Notes under the pieces: model-generated
Seen by the model: only the letters and a program-made list of their open reading frames with translations
What the model was told of the DNA's origin: nothing
Database searches by the model: none
Translations under genes and position numbers: made by a program
IMG/VR virus record: IMGVR_UViG_3300038309_000037
Location: 1 to 26,019 of that record
Reading direction: 5' to 3' (one strand)
Source: a virus
Length of the DNA: 26,019 bases
Part shown: positions 1,742-11,525 of the stretch, in pieces
How positions within the stretch are numbered: the stretch's first letter is position 1
Layout: every line of letters begins with the position of its first letter

Positions 1742-2485
1742 ATGGAAGGCTGGATAAAGCTCCATCGATCTATGATTGCGCATTGGATTTGGGACTTCTC
1801 AGAGCCCGACAAGGCTATGGCCTGGCTTGATCTTTTGGCGCATGCCAGGCACTCAGATGGTCAAATTAAGATCAAAGGAAGCGTCATAACTCTGAAGCGT
1901 GGCGACATTGCTATGTCCCAAATAACATTACAAAAAAGATGGAAATGGTCACAAAACAAGGTAAAACGCTTCCTGAAACTTCTCGAAAAAGAGGGAATGA
2001 TAGAGCTATCAACGAACGTACACACAAGCATCATAAGTATATGTAATTACAATAAATATCAGGAAGACGAACGAACAGGCGAACGTGCAGACGGACGACC
2101 ACCCGAACGTACGGCGGACGACCACCCGAACGACGATATAAGAATGAAAGAAGGAAAGAATGGTAAGAATGTTTTAAATAATATTGCGCGCGGTACCCGC
2201 TTGCCTGCTGACTGGGTTCTGCCCGATGACTGGAAAAGCGAAGCGAAGAAGATCAGACCTGATTGGCATGATCAGCATATTCAGCGAGTTTCAGAAGGCT
2301 TCCGAGATTACTGGATAGCCAAGACCGGGAAAGATGCCACCAAGGCTAACTGGCTGGCTACTTGGCGAAACTGGTGCAGAAGAGACAAGACAACCCCATT
2401 TCCAGCGCCATCAGACTCCAACGGAAAGCCACCAGGGATGAGAAACATAAAACCTATGCCAAGACCAGGGGATAACCATGGATAA
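1742..2485 (+). CDS. Phage replication initiator / helicase-loader-like protein
   Basis: A 247-residue protein. Residues about 1-90 look like the winged-helix N-terminal domain of phage replication proteins (W-I-K-L-H-R, then R-G-D-I-A, then N-K-V-K-R-F-L-K-L-L-E-K-E-G-M-I). Residues about 106-147 form a charged linker encoded by repeat DNA. Residues about 186-214 (F-R-D-Y-W, G-K-D-A-T-K-A-N-W, W-R-N-W-C-R-R) match the DnaT-like C-terminal domain found in phage replication proteins. Expected role: bind the origin and load the DnaB-type helicase encoded next, which overlaps by 8 bases. The lambda O/P pair is the functional analogy, not a demonstrated homology. No Shine-Dalgarno precedes the ATG; see the leader peptide entry. 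Confidence 0.8.
   Translation: MEGWIKLHRSMIAHWIWDFSEPDKAMAWLDLLAHARHSDGQIKIKGSVITLKRGDIAMSQITLQKRWKWSQNKVKRFLKLLEKEGMIELSTNVHTSIISICNYNKYQEDERTGERADGRPPERTADDHPNDDIRMKEGKNGKNVLNNIARGTRLPADWVLPDDWKSEAKKIRPDWHDQHIQRVSEGFRDYWIAKTGKDATKANWLATWRNWCRRDKTTPFPAPSDSNGKPPGMRNIKPMPRPGDNHG
2013..2185 (+). other. Candidate replication origin inside the replication gene
   Basis: CGAACG occurs at 2013, 2068, 2080, 2104 and 2127. The longest copies form an identical 18-mer, CGGACGACCACCCGAACG, at 2092-2109 and 2115-2132, a 23-base period. Because 23 is not a multiple of three, the copies are translated differently (GRPPER versus DDHPND), so the conservation acts on DNA rather than protein. An A+T-rich, purine-rich stretch follows (about 2136-2185), as expected for an unwinding element. 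Lambda has the same arrangement, with its origin in gene O. Origin function is inferred. Confidence 0.6.
2092..2132 (+). repeat. Two identical 18-bp direct repeats (iteron-like)
   Basis: Copies at 2092-2109 and 2115-2132 are identical over 18 bp and separated by 5 bases. They lie in the linker-coding part of the replication gene and are read in different frames. Confidence 0.85.
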
Positions 2486-3761
2486 CTTCCTGGAGGCAGA
2501 ACAGGCTGTCGTGGGGGCGCTTCTTCTGGAGAACGGGAAGATCACCGATATTGATCTTTCGCCATTTGATTTTTGCGATGGAACTTTGGGACAGGTATTT
2601 GGCGCAATTCTAAATCTGGAGAGAAATCAGCAGCCATTCGATATGTGGACAGTCGCTGATGAGCTGGCAAGGACAACCGGAAAAGACTGGGTAACAACGA
2701 TTGCCAGCATTGCCAAAAACACTGTAAGCGCCAGAAACATCCAGACCTATGCGGAACACGTCAAACGCTACAAACGCAACCGTGAGGCCAGAAGGATCGC
2801 TAAGGAACTTGCCCAGGGCATTGGACAAGATGATACCGCCATCGACAGAGCGATCGCCGACCTAATGGCGCTGGATACTCAAGCACAACAAACAACCTAT
2901 ACCATCAGAGAGGCGGTTAAACTGGCGGTTGATCACGTAGATGCAGTTTGGAAGTCAGAAGGAAAAATAACCGGAATACCTACCGGACTATCTGATCTTG
3001 ATGACTGCATTGGAGGATATCAGAACGGTGATTTGTTTGTGCTGGGAGCTAGGCCAGCGATGGGTAAAACGGGATTTCTTCTATCGTCTGCTCTGTCGTG
3101 CGGTGTTCCTGCTGGCATAATTTCAGCAGAAATGTCTGCCTTTCAGCTTGGCATGAGGGCTATATCAACACAAGGAAGAGTAGATTCTCAAAAGTTGCGA
3201 ACTGCGAAATTAGACGATGAGGACTGGCCATTAATTTCGAACGGCGTTCACCAGTTAGCTGAAAAATCAATTGTAATTGACGACAGGTCAAGCCCTACGA
3301 TTGGAGAAGTTCAGCGCTGGGCAAGAAAGCAAAAGCAAAAATTCGGAATGCGAATTTTGTTTGTAGATTATCTTCAGCGCTTGAGAGGAAATAACCCAAG
3401 GCATTCAAGGATAGATCAGGTTGGAGAGATAGCGATGGGGCTTAAAACTATTGCCGGAGAACTTAATATTCCGGTTGTCGCATTGGCTCAGGTTAACAGG
3501 GACGTGGAAAAACGAAATGACAGAAGGCCGCTAATGGGCGACCTAGCGAATTCAAGCGAAATAGAAAAGGAAGCTGATGAAATCGTCATGCTTTACCGTG
3601 ATGAAGTCTATAATGAAGATACACAAGACAAAGGTATTGCAGAATTTAACATTGAGAAAAATAGGCACGGCCCTACAGGAATGATAAGGGCTGTTTGGCA
3701 AGCGAGATTCATAAAATTTGAAAATATTGCTACTCATTGGGAGCAGCAGAGGTCAAGATAA
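2478..3761 (+). CDS. dnaB: Replicative DNA helicase, DnaB type
   Basis: A 427-residue protein of usual DnaB length. Residues about 1-100 form the N-terminal helical domain (EAEQAVVGALL). Residues about 160-427 form the RecA-like motor: Walker A GARPAMGKT (190-198), the catalytic Glu segment SAEMS (E218), Walker B RILFVDYLQ (292-300), the DNA-binding region with LAQVNRDVEKR, and the EKNRHGPTG loop (393-401) that carries the arginine finger in the family. It unwinds DNA 5'-3' at the phage fork. The gene overlaps the upstream initiator gene by 8 bases and has AGGGGA before its ATG, so the two are probably co-translated. All key motifs are intact. Confidence 0.95.
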   Translation: MDNFLEAEQAVVGALLLENGKITDIDLSPFDFCDGTLGQVFGAILNLERNQQPFDMWTVADELARTTGKDWVTTIASIAKNTVSARNIQTYAEHVKRYKRNREARRIAKELAQGIGQDDTAIDRAIADLMALDTQAQQTTYTIREAVKLAVDHVDAVWKSEGKITGIPTGLSDLDDCIGGYQNGDLFVLGARPAMGKTGFLLSSALSCGVPAGIISAEMSAFQLGMRAISTQGRVDSQKLRTAKLDDEDWPLISNGVHQLAEKSIVIDDRSSPTIGEVQRWARKQKQKFGMRILFVDYLQRLRGNNPRHSRIDQVGEIAMGLKTIAGELNIPVVALAQVNRDVEKRNDRRPLMGDLANSSEIEKEADEIVMLYRDEVYNEDTQDKGIAEFNIEKNRHGPTGMIRAVWQARFIKFENIATHWEQQRSR

Positions 3762-4227: not shown

Positions 4228-4387
4228 TCTGATTTATTTTGCGATATTATTGATCTGGTTATATATTGTCGTTATCTGGTTCTATATTGTCGTTGAAGCG
4301 AATTACGAACGGGATATGATGATGCTTGATCAGAAGGCAATGGATTTTGAGCGGATGGTTAGGGTAACGAATGAAATTAATTTTTAA
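4220..4387 (+). CDS. Small single-span membrane protein
   Basis: A 55-residue protein starting at a GTG (4220) that overlaps the previous stop by 8 bases and follows a strong GGGAGG site (4204-4209). Residues about 3-25 are a continuous hydrophobic segment rich in Ile, Leu, Val, Tyr and Trp, a clear transmembrane helix. A charged helical tail of about 30 residues follows (EANYERDMMMLDQKA). The helix contains a tandem heptapeptide, IWLYIVV-IWFYIVV, encoded by two nearly identical 21-bp units. The size and layout would suit a small inner-membrane phage protein such as an exclusion or inhibitor peptide, but no family is recognised. Confidence 0.6.
   Translation: MYNLIYFAILLIWLYIVVIWFYIVVEANYERDMMMLDQKAMDFERMVRVTNEINF
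4253..4294 (+). repeat. In-frame 21-bp tandem duplication
   Basis: Bases 4253-4273 and 4274-4294 are the same 21-mer with one difference (A at 4261, C at 4282). The duplication adds one heptapeptide to the transmembrane helix of the small membrane protein and looks recent. Confidence 0.85.
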
Positions 4388-5183: not shown

Positions 5184-5704
5184 GGATTGATATTAAACCG
5201 CTGAGCGTCAATGCTGCATGGCAGGGGCGCCGATTCAAAACTCCGGCGTATGAAAAATATGAGCGCGATGTATTGCTGTTGTTGCCGAAAATGGAAGTTC
5301 CGGATGGCTTGATGTGCATAAAACTAATATTTGGTTTTAGCAGCTTAGGATCGGATTTCGATAATGCAATCAAACCGTTTATTGACTGCATGCAGAAAAA
5401 ATACGGATTTAACGATAACAGAATAAAGCGGGCTATAATTGAAGTTGAGAATGTCGCAAAGGGCGCTGAATTTATCGAATTTGAGCTTTCTAATTATAAG
5501 CCCAGCATCAAAGAAAAATTATTTAGCTGGCGCGATGCATTTATGGCGCTTGTGAATCGGACGGAATCAAAAGAGTTGAACATCACATCGCGGGAGCTAG
5601 AGAAGGCGCGAAAAACGGATAATTCGATGCTGATTGATTCGAAGAAAGGGAAATACAAAATCATGGCCGGGCAGCTTCACGAAAATATACCGATTGGTGA
5701 TTGA
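5180..5704 (+). CDS. rusA: RusA-type Holliday-junction resolvase with C-terminal extension
   Basis: Residues about 1-105 match RusA endonucleases: an N-terminal strand (RIDIKPLSVNAAW), then the acidic active-site region S-D-F-D-N-A-I-K-P-F-I-D with D59, D61 and D69, then G-F-N-D-N-R-I with D79. RusA cuts four-way junctions symmetrically; in phages it resolves replication and recombination intermediates before packaging. Typical RusA proteins are about 120 residues. This one is 174, with an extra helical, basic tail (from about residue 108: KEKLFSWRDAFMALVNRTE onward) that I do not recognise. The start overlaps the YbcO-type gene by 4 bases. Confidence 0.85.
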   Translation: MRIDIKPLSVNAAWQGRRFKTPAYEKYERDVLLLLPKMEVPDGLMCIKLIFGFSSLGSDFDNAIKPFIDCMQKKYGFNDNRIKRAIIEVENVAKGAEFIEFELSNYKPSIKEKLFSWRDAFMALVNRTESKELNITSRELEKARKTDNSMLIDSKKGKYKIMAGQLHENIPIGD

Positions 5705-5705
5705 T

Positions 5706-6185
5706 ATGGCTTGGTATCTTATCCGCACAAAATACGGCAACGAAGAGCTGGCACAGGACAACCTAGAGCGCCAGGGATTCGAGACCTACAAGCCGCTGAT
5801 CAACTTGGAACGGATGCGCAAGGGCAAACTGGAGGCCCGCATCGAGCCAGCATTCCGCAGTTACGTTTTCGTAAATTTCAACCCAGAAACACAATCGGCA
5901 TACACGATCAACAACACGATCGGCGTCACAAGCCTGGTCAGTTTCGGCGGAATCCTCGCCTCAATTCCAAATCAAACCATTGAAATCATTAAAAAAACGT
6001 TTGAACATGCGGAACATTCTGACGGGTTCAAATCAGGGGAAGTCGTGCATATAACGGCCGGCCCGCTCAAGGGGTTGACAGCGATATTTCAAGAGCCGGA
6101 CGGCTTGAAACGCTCACATATCATGCTAAAATTGCTAAATCAGAAGTCTTTGATTACAATTGAAAACAAATTCATCTGCCGTTGA
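5706..6185 (+). CDS. rfaH: RfaH-like transcription antiterminator (NusG family)
   Basis: A 159-residue protein starting one base after the rusA stop. It aligns end to end with E. coli RfaH (162 residues). Shared blocks include WYL at 3-5, LERQ at 20-23, P-L-I-x-L-E, E-P-x-F-x-x-Y-x-F-V, TIN at 67-69, G-V-x-x-x-V-x-F-G, and a C-terminal I-T-x-G-x-x-x-G-x-x-A-I-F-x-E-P-D-G-x-x-R-S. Residues 1-100 are the NGN domain that holds RNA polymerase and 111-159 the KOW domain. The E. coli HTTT motif is SAYT here. RfaH joins RNA polymerase only at ops sites; an ops-like site lies 21 bases after the stop. The likely role is antitermination of phage genes. It is much closer to RfaH than to NusG. Confidence 0.93.
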   Translation: MAWYLIRTKYGNEELAQDNLERQGFETYKPLINLERMRKGKLEARIEPAFRSYVFVNFNPETQSAYTINNTIGVTSLVSFGGILASIPNQTIEIIKKTFEHAEHSDGFKSGEVVHITAGPLKGLTAIFQEPDGLKRSHIMLKLLNQKSLITIENKFICR

Positions 6186-9850: not shown

Positions 9851-10113
9851 TGACCGGAAAAAATAGGCCGAAAAATCCCGGTGACGTGCGGCTTAAAAAA
9901 CACATTGAGCATATACACCGTTGGGTTGAAACAAAAGACGGAAGGATTGGCCCGGATGGGTCTTTTAAAGACGTTGCGGATAAAAAGTTTTGCGTTTACA
10001 TGATCCGCGCAAAAGCGGGCGAGTTGATAGGCCCCGAGTTTTCAAAGCGTTACGGGATCAAACGAATAGAAGACGTAACCAGCGCGCTATTGCAGTCTGG
10101 AGACGCTGATTGA
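9850..10113 (+). CDS. Hypothetical protein
   Basis: An 87-residue soluble, basic protein that starts in a one-base overlap with the preceding stop. It contains H-I-E-H-I-H-R-W-V-E, a single cysteine, and a C-terminal helical half (AGELIGPEFSKRYGIKRIEDVTSALLQ). No family recognised. It lies between the Fn3 protein and the repeat protein in the same transcription unit and overlaps the latter by 4 bases, so a virion or assembly role is possible. Confidence 0.5.
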   Translation: MTGKNRPKNPGDVRLKKHIEHIHRWVETKDGRIGPDGSFKDVADKKFCVYMIRAKAGELIGPEFSKRYGIKRIEDVTSALLQSGDAD

Positions 10114-11525
10114 CGGCAGCTTTTGGTAGTATTACATCCGCGTACGTCACGTACAGCGACAACGCACCATCCGTTTCCGTACCATCTGGCGCAGCTGCCG
10201 GTGACGTTTTTATTTGGGTTGTCAAAAAGGGTAATGGCGAGATTATAACCCCGCCAACTGGTTTTTACGCGCTTGATAGCGCTGAAGAAACAAGCATTGG
10301 TAGTGGGATCTATACCTTTGCCAAAACGGCGGACGGCACTGAAAGTGGAAATTTTACGGGATCATCCTCCGCATATTCGTCATGGATATGCCTATGCTGG
10401 GTTACAACTGGCGTTTCATCCACGATAGTATCGCACAATGCAAATGACACTTATGCAGGCTATGTGTCTAGTGTGCCTTGTAGTACGGGTAGTATCGCGT
10501 CTTCATCCGGGGATTTTATTGTCGGTGTTTTTTCCGCAACCGATGCAGGTACCACGTCAACACTGAGTTTTGTACCTCCATCAGGGTTTACGACAGAAAA
10601 CATCGGCGGCAGCCCTATACTTGATTTGGGAAACTCGCGAGGAGTTGCTCTTGCATACAAAACATCTCCAGGTGAAACTGCGGCATATACAGCGGATATA
10701 AATTCCACCGCGACGACCACGTTTTCAGGGATGGGCGCGGGGTTTGTGTTTACGCCATCGGGCGGCGGTGGCGGAACTTCGGTAGCGCTTACAGGTCAAT
10801 CCTCAACTGCGGGGCAGGGAACGCTTTCTGTTGCCGGGAGCGCTAACAAATCACTTACCGGACAACAGATAACAAGCTCAATCGGGACGATTACTGTTTC
10901 TGGCTCTGCAGCCGTTACTATAACGGGACAGCAAGCAGATACAGGGCAGGGAAACCTGGTAGTTACGGGCAGCGCTAATGCCGTTCTGACCGGACAGGCC
11001 TCTACGCTCGGACAAGGCGGATTATCGGTTGCTGGTTCTGCCGCGCTAACGCTGTCTGGACTCGAAATAACATCAGGACAAGGAACCGTTTCTGTTTCAG
11101 TAAGCGGTTCTGTCACCGTCAATCTAACAGGGCAACAGCTAAGCGTATCGCAAGGTTCATTGAGTATATCTGGAGACGCATCTGTTACATTGACTGGTAT
11201 CGGAATAAACAGCCAGCAGGGCTCGCTAACGATTTCGGGCGATAGCACACTGGCATTATCCGGGCAGGCGTTATCATCTATTCAGGGAGCATTGGCGCTC
11301 ACAACTAGCTCATCGGTGGCCCTGACAGGACAACAAATAACCATAGGTCAGGGCATAATCACAATATCAACCCCCGGAGCATTTGTGACTGGCACAAAAA
11401 TATACCTTTGCGACACAATTTATAAAGACTACATCGCGACATCAAATGTCAATACATACATCTGCGATGTAGAAAACAAGCAATACACCGGAACTTATAC
11501 ATCTCGAACTTACGGAGCCACGTAA
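10110..11525 (+). CDS. Repeat-containing structural protein (tail or decoration)
   Basis: A 471-residue protein beginning at a TTG (10110) that overlaps the preceding stop, with GGAG 7 bases before it. Residues 1-215 form a beta-rich N-terminal domain ending in a Gly-rich hinge (PSGGGGG). Residues about 225-423 hold nine imperfect repeats of about 22 residues with the core L-T-G-Q-x5-x-Q-G-x-L-x-V-x-G-S-A. The C-terminal 45 residues hold two related blocks, I-Y-L-C-D-T-x-Y-K-D-Y and T-Y-I-C-D-V-x-N-K-Q-Y. Such LTGQ repeats occur in phage tail and surface proteins. It is probably virion-associated; host binding is possible but unproven. Confidence 0.65.
   Translation: MTAAFGSITSAYVTYSDNAPSVSVPSGAAAGDVFIWVVKKGNGEIITPPTGFYALDSAEETSIGSGIYTFAKTADGTESGNFTGSSSAYSSWICLCWVTTGVSSTIVSHNANDTYAGYVSSVPCSTGSIASSSGDFIVGVFSATDAGTTSTLSFVPPSGFTTENIGGSPILDLGNSRGVALAYKTSPGETAAYTADINSTATTTFSGMGAGFVFTPSGGGGGTSVALTGQSSTAGQGTLSVAGSANKSLTGQQITSSIGTITVSGSAAVTITGQQADTGQGNLVVTGSANAVLTGQASTLGQGGLSVAGSAALTLSGLEITSGQGTVSVSVSGSVTVNLTGQQLSVSQGSLSISGDASVTLTGIGINSQQGSLTISGDSTLALSGQALSSIQGALALTTSSSVALTGQQITIGQGIITISTPGAFVTGTKIYLCDTIYKDYIATSNVNTYICDVENKQYTGTYTSRTYGAT
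10782..11378 (+). repeat. Nine degenerate coding repeats, about 66 bp each
   Basis: The coding repeats start near each L-T-G-Q or variant (L-S-G-L, L-T-G-I, L-S-G-Q). They are diverged in DNA sequence and length (20-24 residues), so they are old and kept at protein level. Confidence 0.75.

Follow-up and report, generated by a model that had tools for sequence, protein, structure and literature searches.

The origin of phage lambda contains four iterons, each about 18 bp long and imperfectly palindromic, and in P22 the gene that follows the initiator (the gp18-gp12 pair) codes for a DnaB-type helicase. The closest described system is that of phage SPP1: gp38 binds the direct repeats of oriL, an experimentally established origin that lies within gene 38 itself, beside an A+T-rich opening element, and it is also bound at oriR, an intergenic site located some 13 kb from oriL, where it has been proposed to stall replication forks (PMC6316719). 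In Staphylococcus phage 80alpha the deletion of a gp38-like gene, ORF20, proved impossible to complement in trans, and the authors of that study read this as revealing an embedded origin (PMC5499656). A comparable setup is that of the RepA_N plasmids, where the N-terminal winged helix of pSK41 Rep binds boxes placed centrally in rep, the linker is dispensable as protein and, in the chimera pPR9, a phage-type N-terminus and its origin were exchanged together (PMC5703833).

The DNA analysed here, which we call the window, is the whole 26,019-nucleotide stretch of the IMG/VR virus record IMGVR_UViG_3300038309_000037. The features that we have to consider are the following:

1742..2485, plus strand: initiator (replisome organizer) gene, 247 aa, with winged helix, linker and C-terminal domain (open reading frame, PHROG, match to SPP1 gene 38, AlphaFold2)
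1742..2062, plus strand: region coding for the winged-helix DNA-binding domain, residues 1-107 (AlphaFold2 with pLDDT mostly >90, alignment of relatives)
2013..2018, plus strand: outlying CGAACG (same gene position, 272, in relatives L072 and L073)
2068..2138 (cores 2068-2132), plus strand: iteron array, six CGRACG-cored units (repeats, tandem-repeat search, synonymous-codon null, kept in relatives)
2092..2109, plus strand: first exact 18-mer copy, codon phase 2
2115..2132, plus strand: second exact 18-mer copy, codon phase 1
2137..2186, plus strand: putative DNA unwinding element, 78% A+T (A+T percentile, AAGAATG copies)
2225..2383, plus strand: region coding for a small C-terminal helical domain, about residues 162-214 (AlphaFold2 helices, homologues)
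2478..3761, plus strand: DnaB-type replicative helicase gene (Pfam DnaB_C, E 2.9e-78, and DnaB, E 5e-19; PHROG 19)

Residues 1-143 of the initiator match PHROG 2514, a DnaD-like helicase loader (E 5e-30), and SPP1 gene 38 is found by tblastn among the annotated phage matches (40% over 130 aa, E 4e-18). The best Pfam match, Phage_rep_org_N, stays below its family cut-off (E 0.009), and Pfam returned no match to the RepA_N domain. In the AlphaFold2 model the recognition helix spans residues 71-83 and the wing residues 87-100, with strands at 87-91 and 96-100; the linker is predicted to be disordered, confidence being low between residues 127 and 153. A Foldseek comparison with the PDB retrieved generic winged helices only, none at E <0.001, and adds 'winged helix' but no more, while a sequence search of solved structures gave marginal matches only. 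The C-terminal domain, which is presumed to recruit the helicase, is common to initiators of Pseudomonas and Mycobacterium phages, and one Pseudomonas phage gene that possesses it (L192) has an N-terminus of another type. The linker of that gene harbours a repeat of its own, CCCGAATCGGGTAGTGATCGC, present twice at a distance of 45 bp (L192:1315-1380), which is probably another embedded origin. In the window, the helicase gene begins at 2478, within the end of the initiator frame, and no separate loader gene is seen between the two.

The likeness to SPP1 is that of a homologous winged helix, and it extends to the DNA that follows: in gene 38 also, direct repeats about 11 bp apart stand right behind the domain-coding region, an A+T-rich element with short repeats comes after the iterons, and helicase genes then follow. 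The two systems differ in the iterons, which are of the AAACGACA type in SPP1 and of the CGRACG type in the window, in their C-terminal domains, which are unrelated, in the separate loader gp39 that intervenes in SPP1, whereas the helicase gene comes directly next in the window, and in oriR, of which no counterpart, that is, no second iteron array or oriR-like cluster, was found within the 26-kb window. 80alpha shares a gp38-like initiator with a presumed in-gene origin (PMC5499656), but its ORF20 acts together with a loader of the host helicase. The RepA_N initiators belong to another domain family, in plasmids and not in phages, with a C-terminus that contacts the host primase. We can understand these two, the pPR9 swap included, as parallel cases; the arrangement itself is that of SPP1 oriL. 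The initial annotation had called it 'lambda-type', and this stands as an analogy, inasmuch as iterons lie in the linker-coding part of the initiator gene with an A+T-rich segment adjoining. It does not stand for the protein, which has its homologue in SPP1 gp38 and not in lambda O: Phage_rep_O, the Pfam family of lambda O, gave no match at E up to 1, the O-like PHROG match is weak (E 0.0014), and the units of the window are 11-12 bp long. Lambda O is to be seen as an analogue and not as a relative; iterons and an A+T-rich segment support 'works like' and not membership. The likeness to P22 is in the DnaB-type helicase gene, next after the initiator gene in the window as well.

The array itself is easily described. 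The 18-mer CGGACGACCACCCGAACG occurs in two exact copies, at 2092-2109 and 2115-2132, 23 bp from start to start, as the initial annotation had reported; it had also placed them correctly in different reading frames, and the two copies encode different peptides. The further CGAACG copies that it mentioned resolve into six CGRACG cores, starting at 2068, 2080, 2092, 2104, 2115 and 2127 (spacings 12, 12, 12, 11 and 12), with units 1-4 in codon phase 2 and units 5-6 in phase 1, plus the outlier at 2013, which is possibly an extra site but may be due to chance. While the copies are exact, the 18-mer is not the natural unit of repetition: this is about 11-12 bp, and the 18-mer recurring at 23 bp is a composite of 12 + 11. 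Plus-strand CGRACG is found at only 20 sites in the 26 kb, and the segment 2065-2132 is the top-ranked tandem repeat of the window (score 87, Tandem Repeats Finder). Apart from the 18-mer pair, a single unrelated repeat (4262/4283) is all that a search of the whole window for exact 12-mers recurring within 60 bp brings up. The second-best tandem repeat, at 4253-4294, is a 21-bp direct repeat in two copies (ATCTGGTTATATATTGTCGTT) that codes in frame for a repeated hydrophobic peptide. When the codons of the initiator gene were shuffled among synonyms, the out-of-frame repeat score, 18.0 in the actual sequence, averaged 6.7 (p = 0.005, the lowest value that 200 shuffles allow), which bears out the earlier contention that selection on the protein cannot explain the repeats.

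The repeats are themselves poor in A+T (36.5% over 2063-2136). The segment that follows, already noticed as A+T-rich, is of a very different composition: 2137-2186 is at the 99.9th percentile of the 50-bp windows of the whole stretch (top 0.1%), and it carries AAGAATG three times, at 2140, 2156 and 2165. Across the relatives described below, mean A+T climbs to 72% at 75-105 nt past the winged-helix domain, and AAGAATG is found 146 times in the stretch 45-150 nt after the domain, where synonymous shuffles leaving the protein unchanged predict 36 (maximum 52), an excess of about fourfold. The same preference is visible in codon choice, as 182 of the 204 Lys-Asn pairs within this stretch are spelled AAG AAT, against 23 of 163 in the remainder of these genes. 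At least one copy is carried by 65 of the 140 genes and at least two by 51. Judged from these counts, AAGAATG is conserved at the level of DNA, across clades whose iterons differ, and its SPP1 counterpart is AACAATG. A DnaD recognition element (TnnT opposite AAGAATG) was considered and set aside, such short motifs being common in A+T-rich DNA.

Relatives were gathered mainly by the winged helix alone, which left the linker free to vary, although some searches used the whole protein; after dereplication there were 139 of them, hence 140 genes with that of the window. In each, the 102 nt that follow the domain were scored for their best out-of-frame self-match at lags of 7-40. This score exceeds that of synonymous-codon shuffles (p 0.05) in 127 of the 140 genes, its mean being 19.7 in linkers, 7.7 in the shuffles and 6.0 in control segments of the same genes. 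The best out-of-frame lag is 11 bp, about one helical turn, in 92 of these 127, the leading in-frame lag is 33 (3 x 11), and unrestricted autocorrelation (lags 3-60) is highest at 11, 22 and 33 bp and shows a secondary maximum at 12. It is from the best-lag list and the autocorrelation that the unbiased evidence for the period comes; the unit lengths given by our chain finder, confined to 10-12 and 21-24 bp, are illustrative only. Mismatches between copies are flat with respect to codon position (16, 14 and 13%), and all three codon phases are used in 102 of the 125 arrays with at least four copies. Because of this period, these flat mismatches and this use of phases, the peptide linkers of the gp38-type family, such as EQQKNNRRTTE in L005, are for the most part a DNA unit of 11 bp translated in each of the three frames. 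Relatives with the same domain but no repeats, which according to the initial annotation should tell against its reading, are reduced to one: among the 71 genes with at least 40% identity (the window counted), 70 carry repeats, the sole exception being L153, whose domain is 48% identical. In this relative, from Candidatus Scalindua, the linker is without clear repeat (L153:2489-2950); it is perhaps a decayed prophage, or its origin lies elsewhere.

If the array is the binding site of the domain encoded just upstream, the two should travel together. L002 and L003 share the winged helix of the window (68% and 63% identity over residues 1-107); they belong to the same contigs as L072 and L073, respectively, and all keep the array, including its 11-bp step, with C-termini unrelated to that of the window. 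The DnaB helicase of the window has no match in the L002 and L003 contigs, possibly fragments. Behind the L003 initiator, in the place of the DnaB helicase, there is a P-loop ATPase-like frame (L003:3690-4661), and we may see there the same DNA-binding and origin module, apparently coupled to other helicase machinery. Over all pairs, linker DNA has a similarity of 0.166 where two genes have the winged helix but not the C-terminus in common, and of 0.057 in the reverse situation; with each gene used once, the values are 0.190 and 0.057 (p 1e-4). As far as such comparisons can tell, it is with the winged helix, and not with the C-terminus, that the linker DNA goes, and the early expectation that the repeats would vary with the DNA-binding domain is in keeping with this; the physical closeness of linker and winged helix could contribute to their coupling. 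Beyond overall identity, linker similarity tracks columns 72, 71, 75 and 93 of the recognition helix and wing, as well as residues 58, 36-37 and 2-6. With the model as a guide, we drew up an interface set of 12 columns, which outscores 300 of 300 random sets; as the column scores had already been inspected once when the set was chosen, and as the relatives are non-independent, we take this covariation as supportive, not decisive. In a control region, the DNA coding for about residues 58-83, the interface set is not outstanding (p 0.12); its recognition-helix subset is (p 0.004), as expected because the DNA there codes for that very helix.

A positive control was provided by the SPP1-like phage 049ML003 (L193), whose initiator gene is 95.8% identical to SPP1 gene 38. 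The signature of iterons plus AACAATG occurs at two places only in this genome, one inside the initiator gene near 35.9 kb, the other between genes at about 4615, some 13 kb apart on the circle. The latter, an oriR-like site with iterons and AACAATG repeats (L193:4615-4690), has no feature annotated. In all likelihood it is oriR, the non-coding partner site already known from SPP1, since its intergenic setting and its spacing of about 13 kb match those of SPP1 oriR; a pattern derived from linkers would thus have located it.

Taken together, the homology to gp38, the out-of-frame repeats, the A+T-rich element, the coupling to the domain, the oriR-like signature, the adjacent helicase gene and the precedent of 80alpha ORF20 lead us to propose, with considerable confidence, that 2068-2186 is the theta replication origin of this phage, embedded in its initiator gene as had been surmised at the outset. 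The winged helix, which the 5' part of the gene encodes, would bind the six iterons, which, being about one helical turn apart, probably present themselves on one face of the DNA. The resulting nucleoprotein complex would strain and open the adjoining A+T-rich segment with its AAGAATG copies, and the C-terminal domain would then bring in the DnaB-type helicase whose gene comes next. Cumulative GC skew over the 26-kb contig is without informative switch at 2 kb. The window being a 26-kb virus record, a second origin may exist elsewhere.

An iteron array alone is no proof that replication starts where it lies, because sites of the SPP1 gp38 type also act at oriR. One may therefore conceive that the iterons bind the initiator mainly for regulation, through autorepression, handcuffing or a stalling of forks for the switch to concatemers, such as the stalling proposed for gp38 at oriR (PMC6316719), and all the sequence evidence for binding fits this equally well. 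The conserved AAGAATG and the A+T-rich segment beside the iterons nevertheless have the build of an opening site; in SPP1 the homologous site within the gene is an initiation origin, used for replication in vitro, and no second array accompanies this one in the window; we consider this regulatory role improbable as the main one. Direct repeats are also found at partition, packaging and recombination sites, and the array could belong to one of these. There is very little chance of this, as the sequence of the repeats goes with the winged helix encoded by the same gene and arrays stand right behind this domain in relatives found in phages and in many bacterial phyla.

Two other explanations would deny the array a function as DNA. 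A linker predicted to be disordered might tolerate any peptide, and linkers of this kind often contain tandem repeats, hence the possibility of a neutral expansion; yet slippage within a coding sequence would be expected to give periods divisible by three, when the period of the family is 11 bp, and neutrality sits badly with repeats in 70 of 71 genes of at least 40% identity, with an 11-bp step kept between phages about 60-68% identical in the domain, and with a repeat that tracks this domain. We give it hardly any credence. Selection might otherwise have acted on a repeated peptide, making for instance a flexible or multimerising linker, with the DNA repeat as a secondary effect, and there are indeed arrays wholly in frame with 12-bp units (L075, L076, L167 and L171). 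However, the peptides of the two 18-mers differ, the out-of-frame repeats vanish in synonymous shuffles that preserve the protein, codon position does not predict the mismatches, and AAG AAT is the codon pair taken for Lys-Asn in 182/204 cases in the stretch, against 23/163 outside; of all these readings it is the one that we find hardest to believe.

With an embedded origin as the preferred reading, we incline, without great assurance, towards a broader proposal for the gp38-type family: the linker would not have been shaped as protein but would be a helically phased 11-bp origin array, translated in three frames and cognate to its own winged helix, AAGAATG being perhaps a dedicated sequence for strand opening or helicase loading that is read by another factor. 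The embedded origin, of the SPP1 oriL type, is an arrangement already known. For the family-wide overlapping code, that is, the 11-bp three-frame iteron rule together with the AAGAATG element, no description was found in the open-access literature searched, and its novelty is uncertain. The immediate consequence is a precise origin candidate for this phage. Beyond this, the rule would account for the odd linkers of these initiators, the peptide being a by-product of a binding array; it would make the origins of many uncharacterised phages readable straight from sequence; each gene coming with its own likely binding site, hundreds of homologues would constitute a data set for a protein-DNA recognition code; and AAGAATG would be a concrete candidate for how such origins open.

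Two other frames of the window deserve mention. The one at 10110-11525 (471 aa), without PHROG match, is made of repeated LTGQ...GQGTLSVSG units and is possibly a repeat-built structural protein. The other, at 5703-6185, codes for a phage-encoded NusG/RfaH-like transcription antiterminator (PHROG 6386, E 2e-15).
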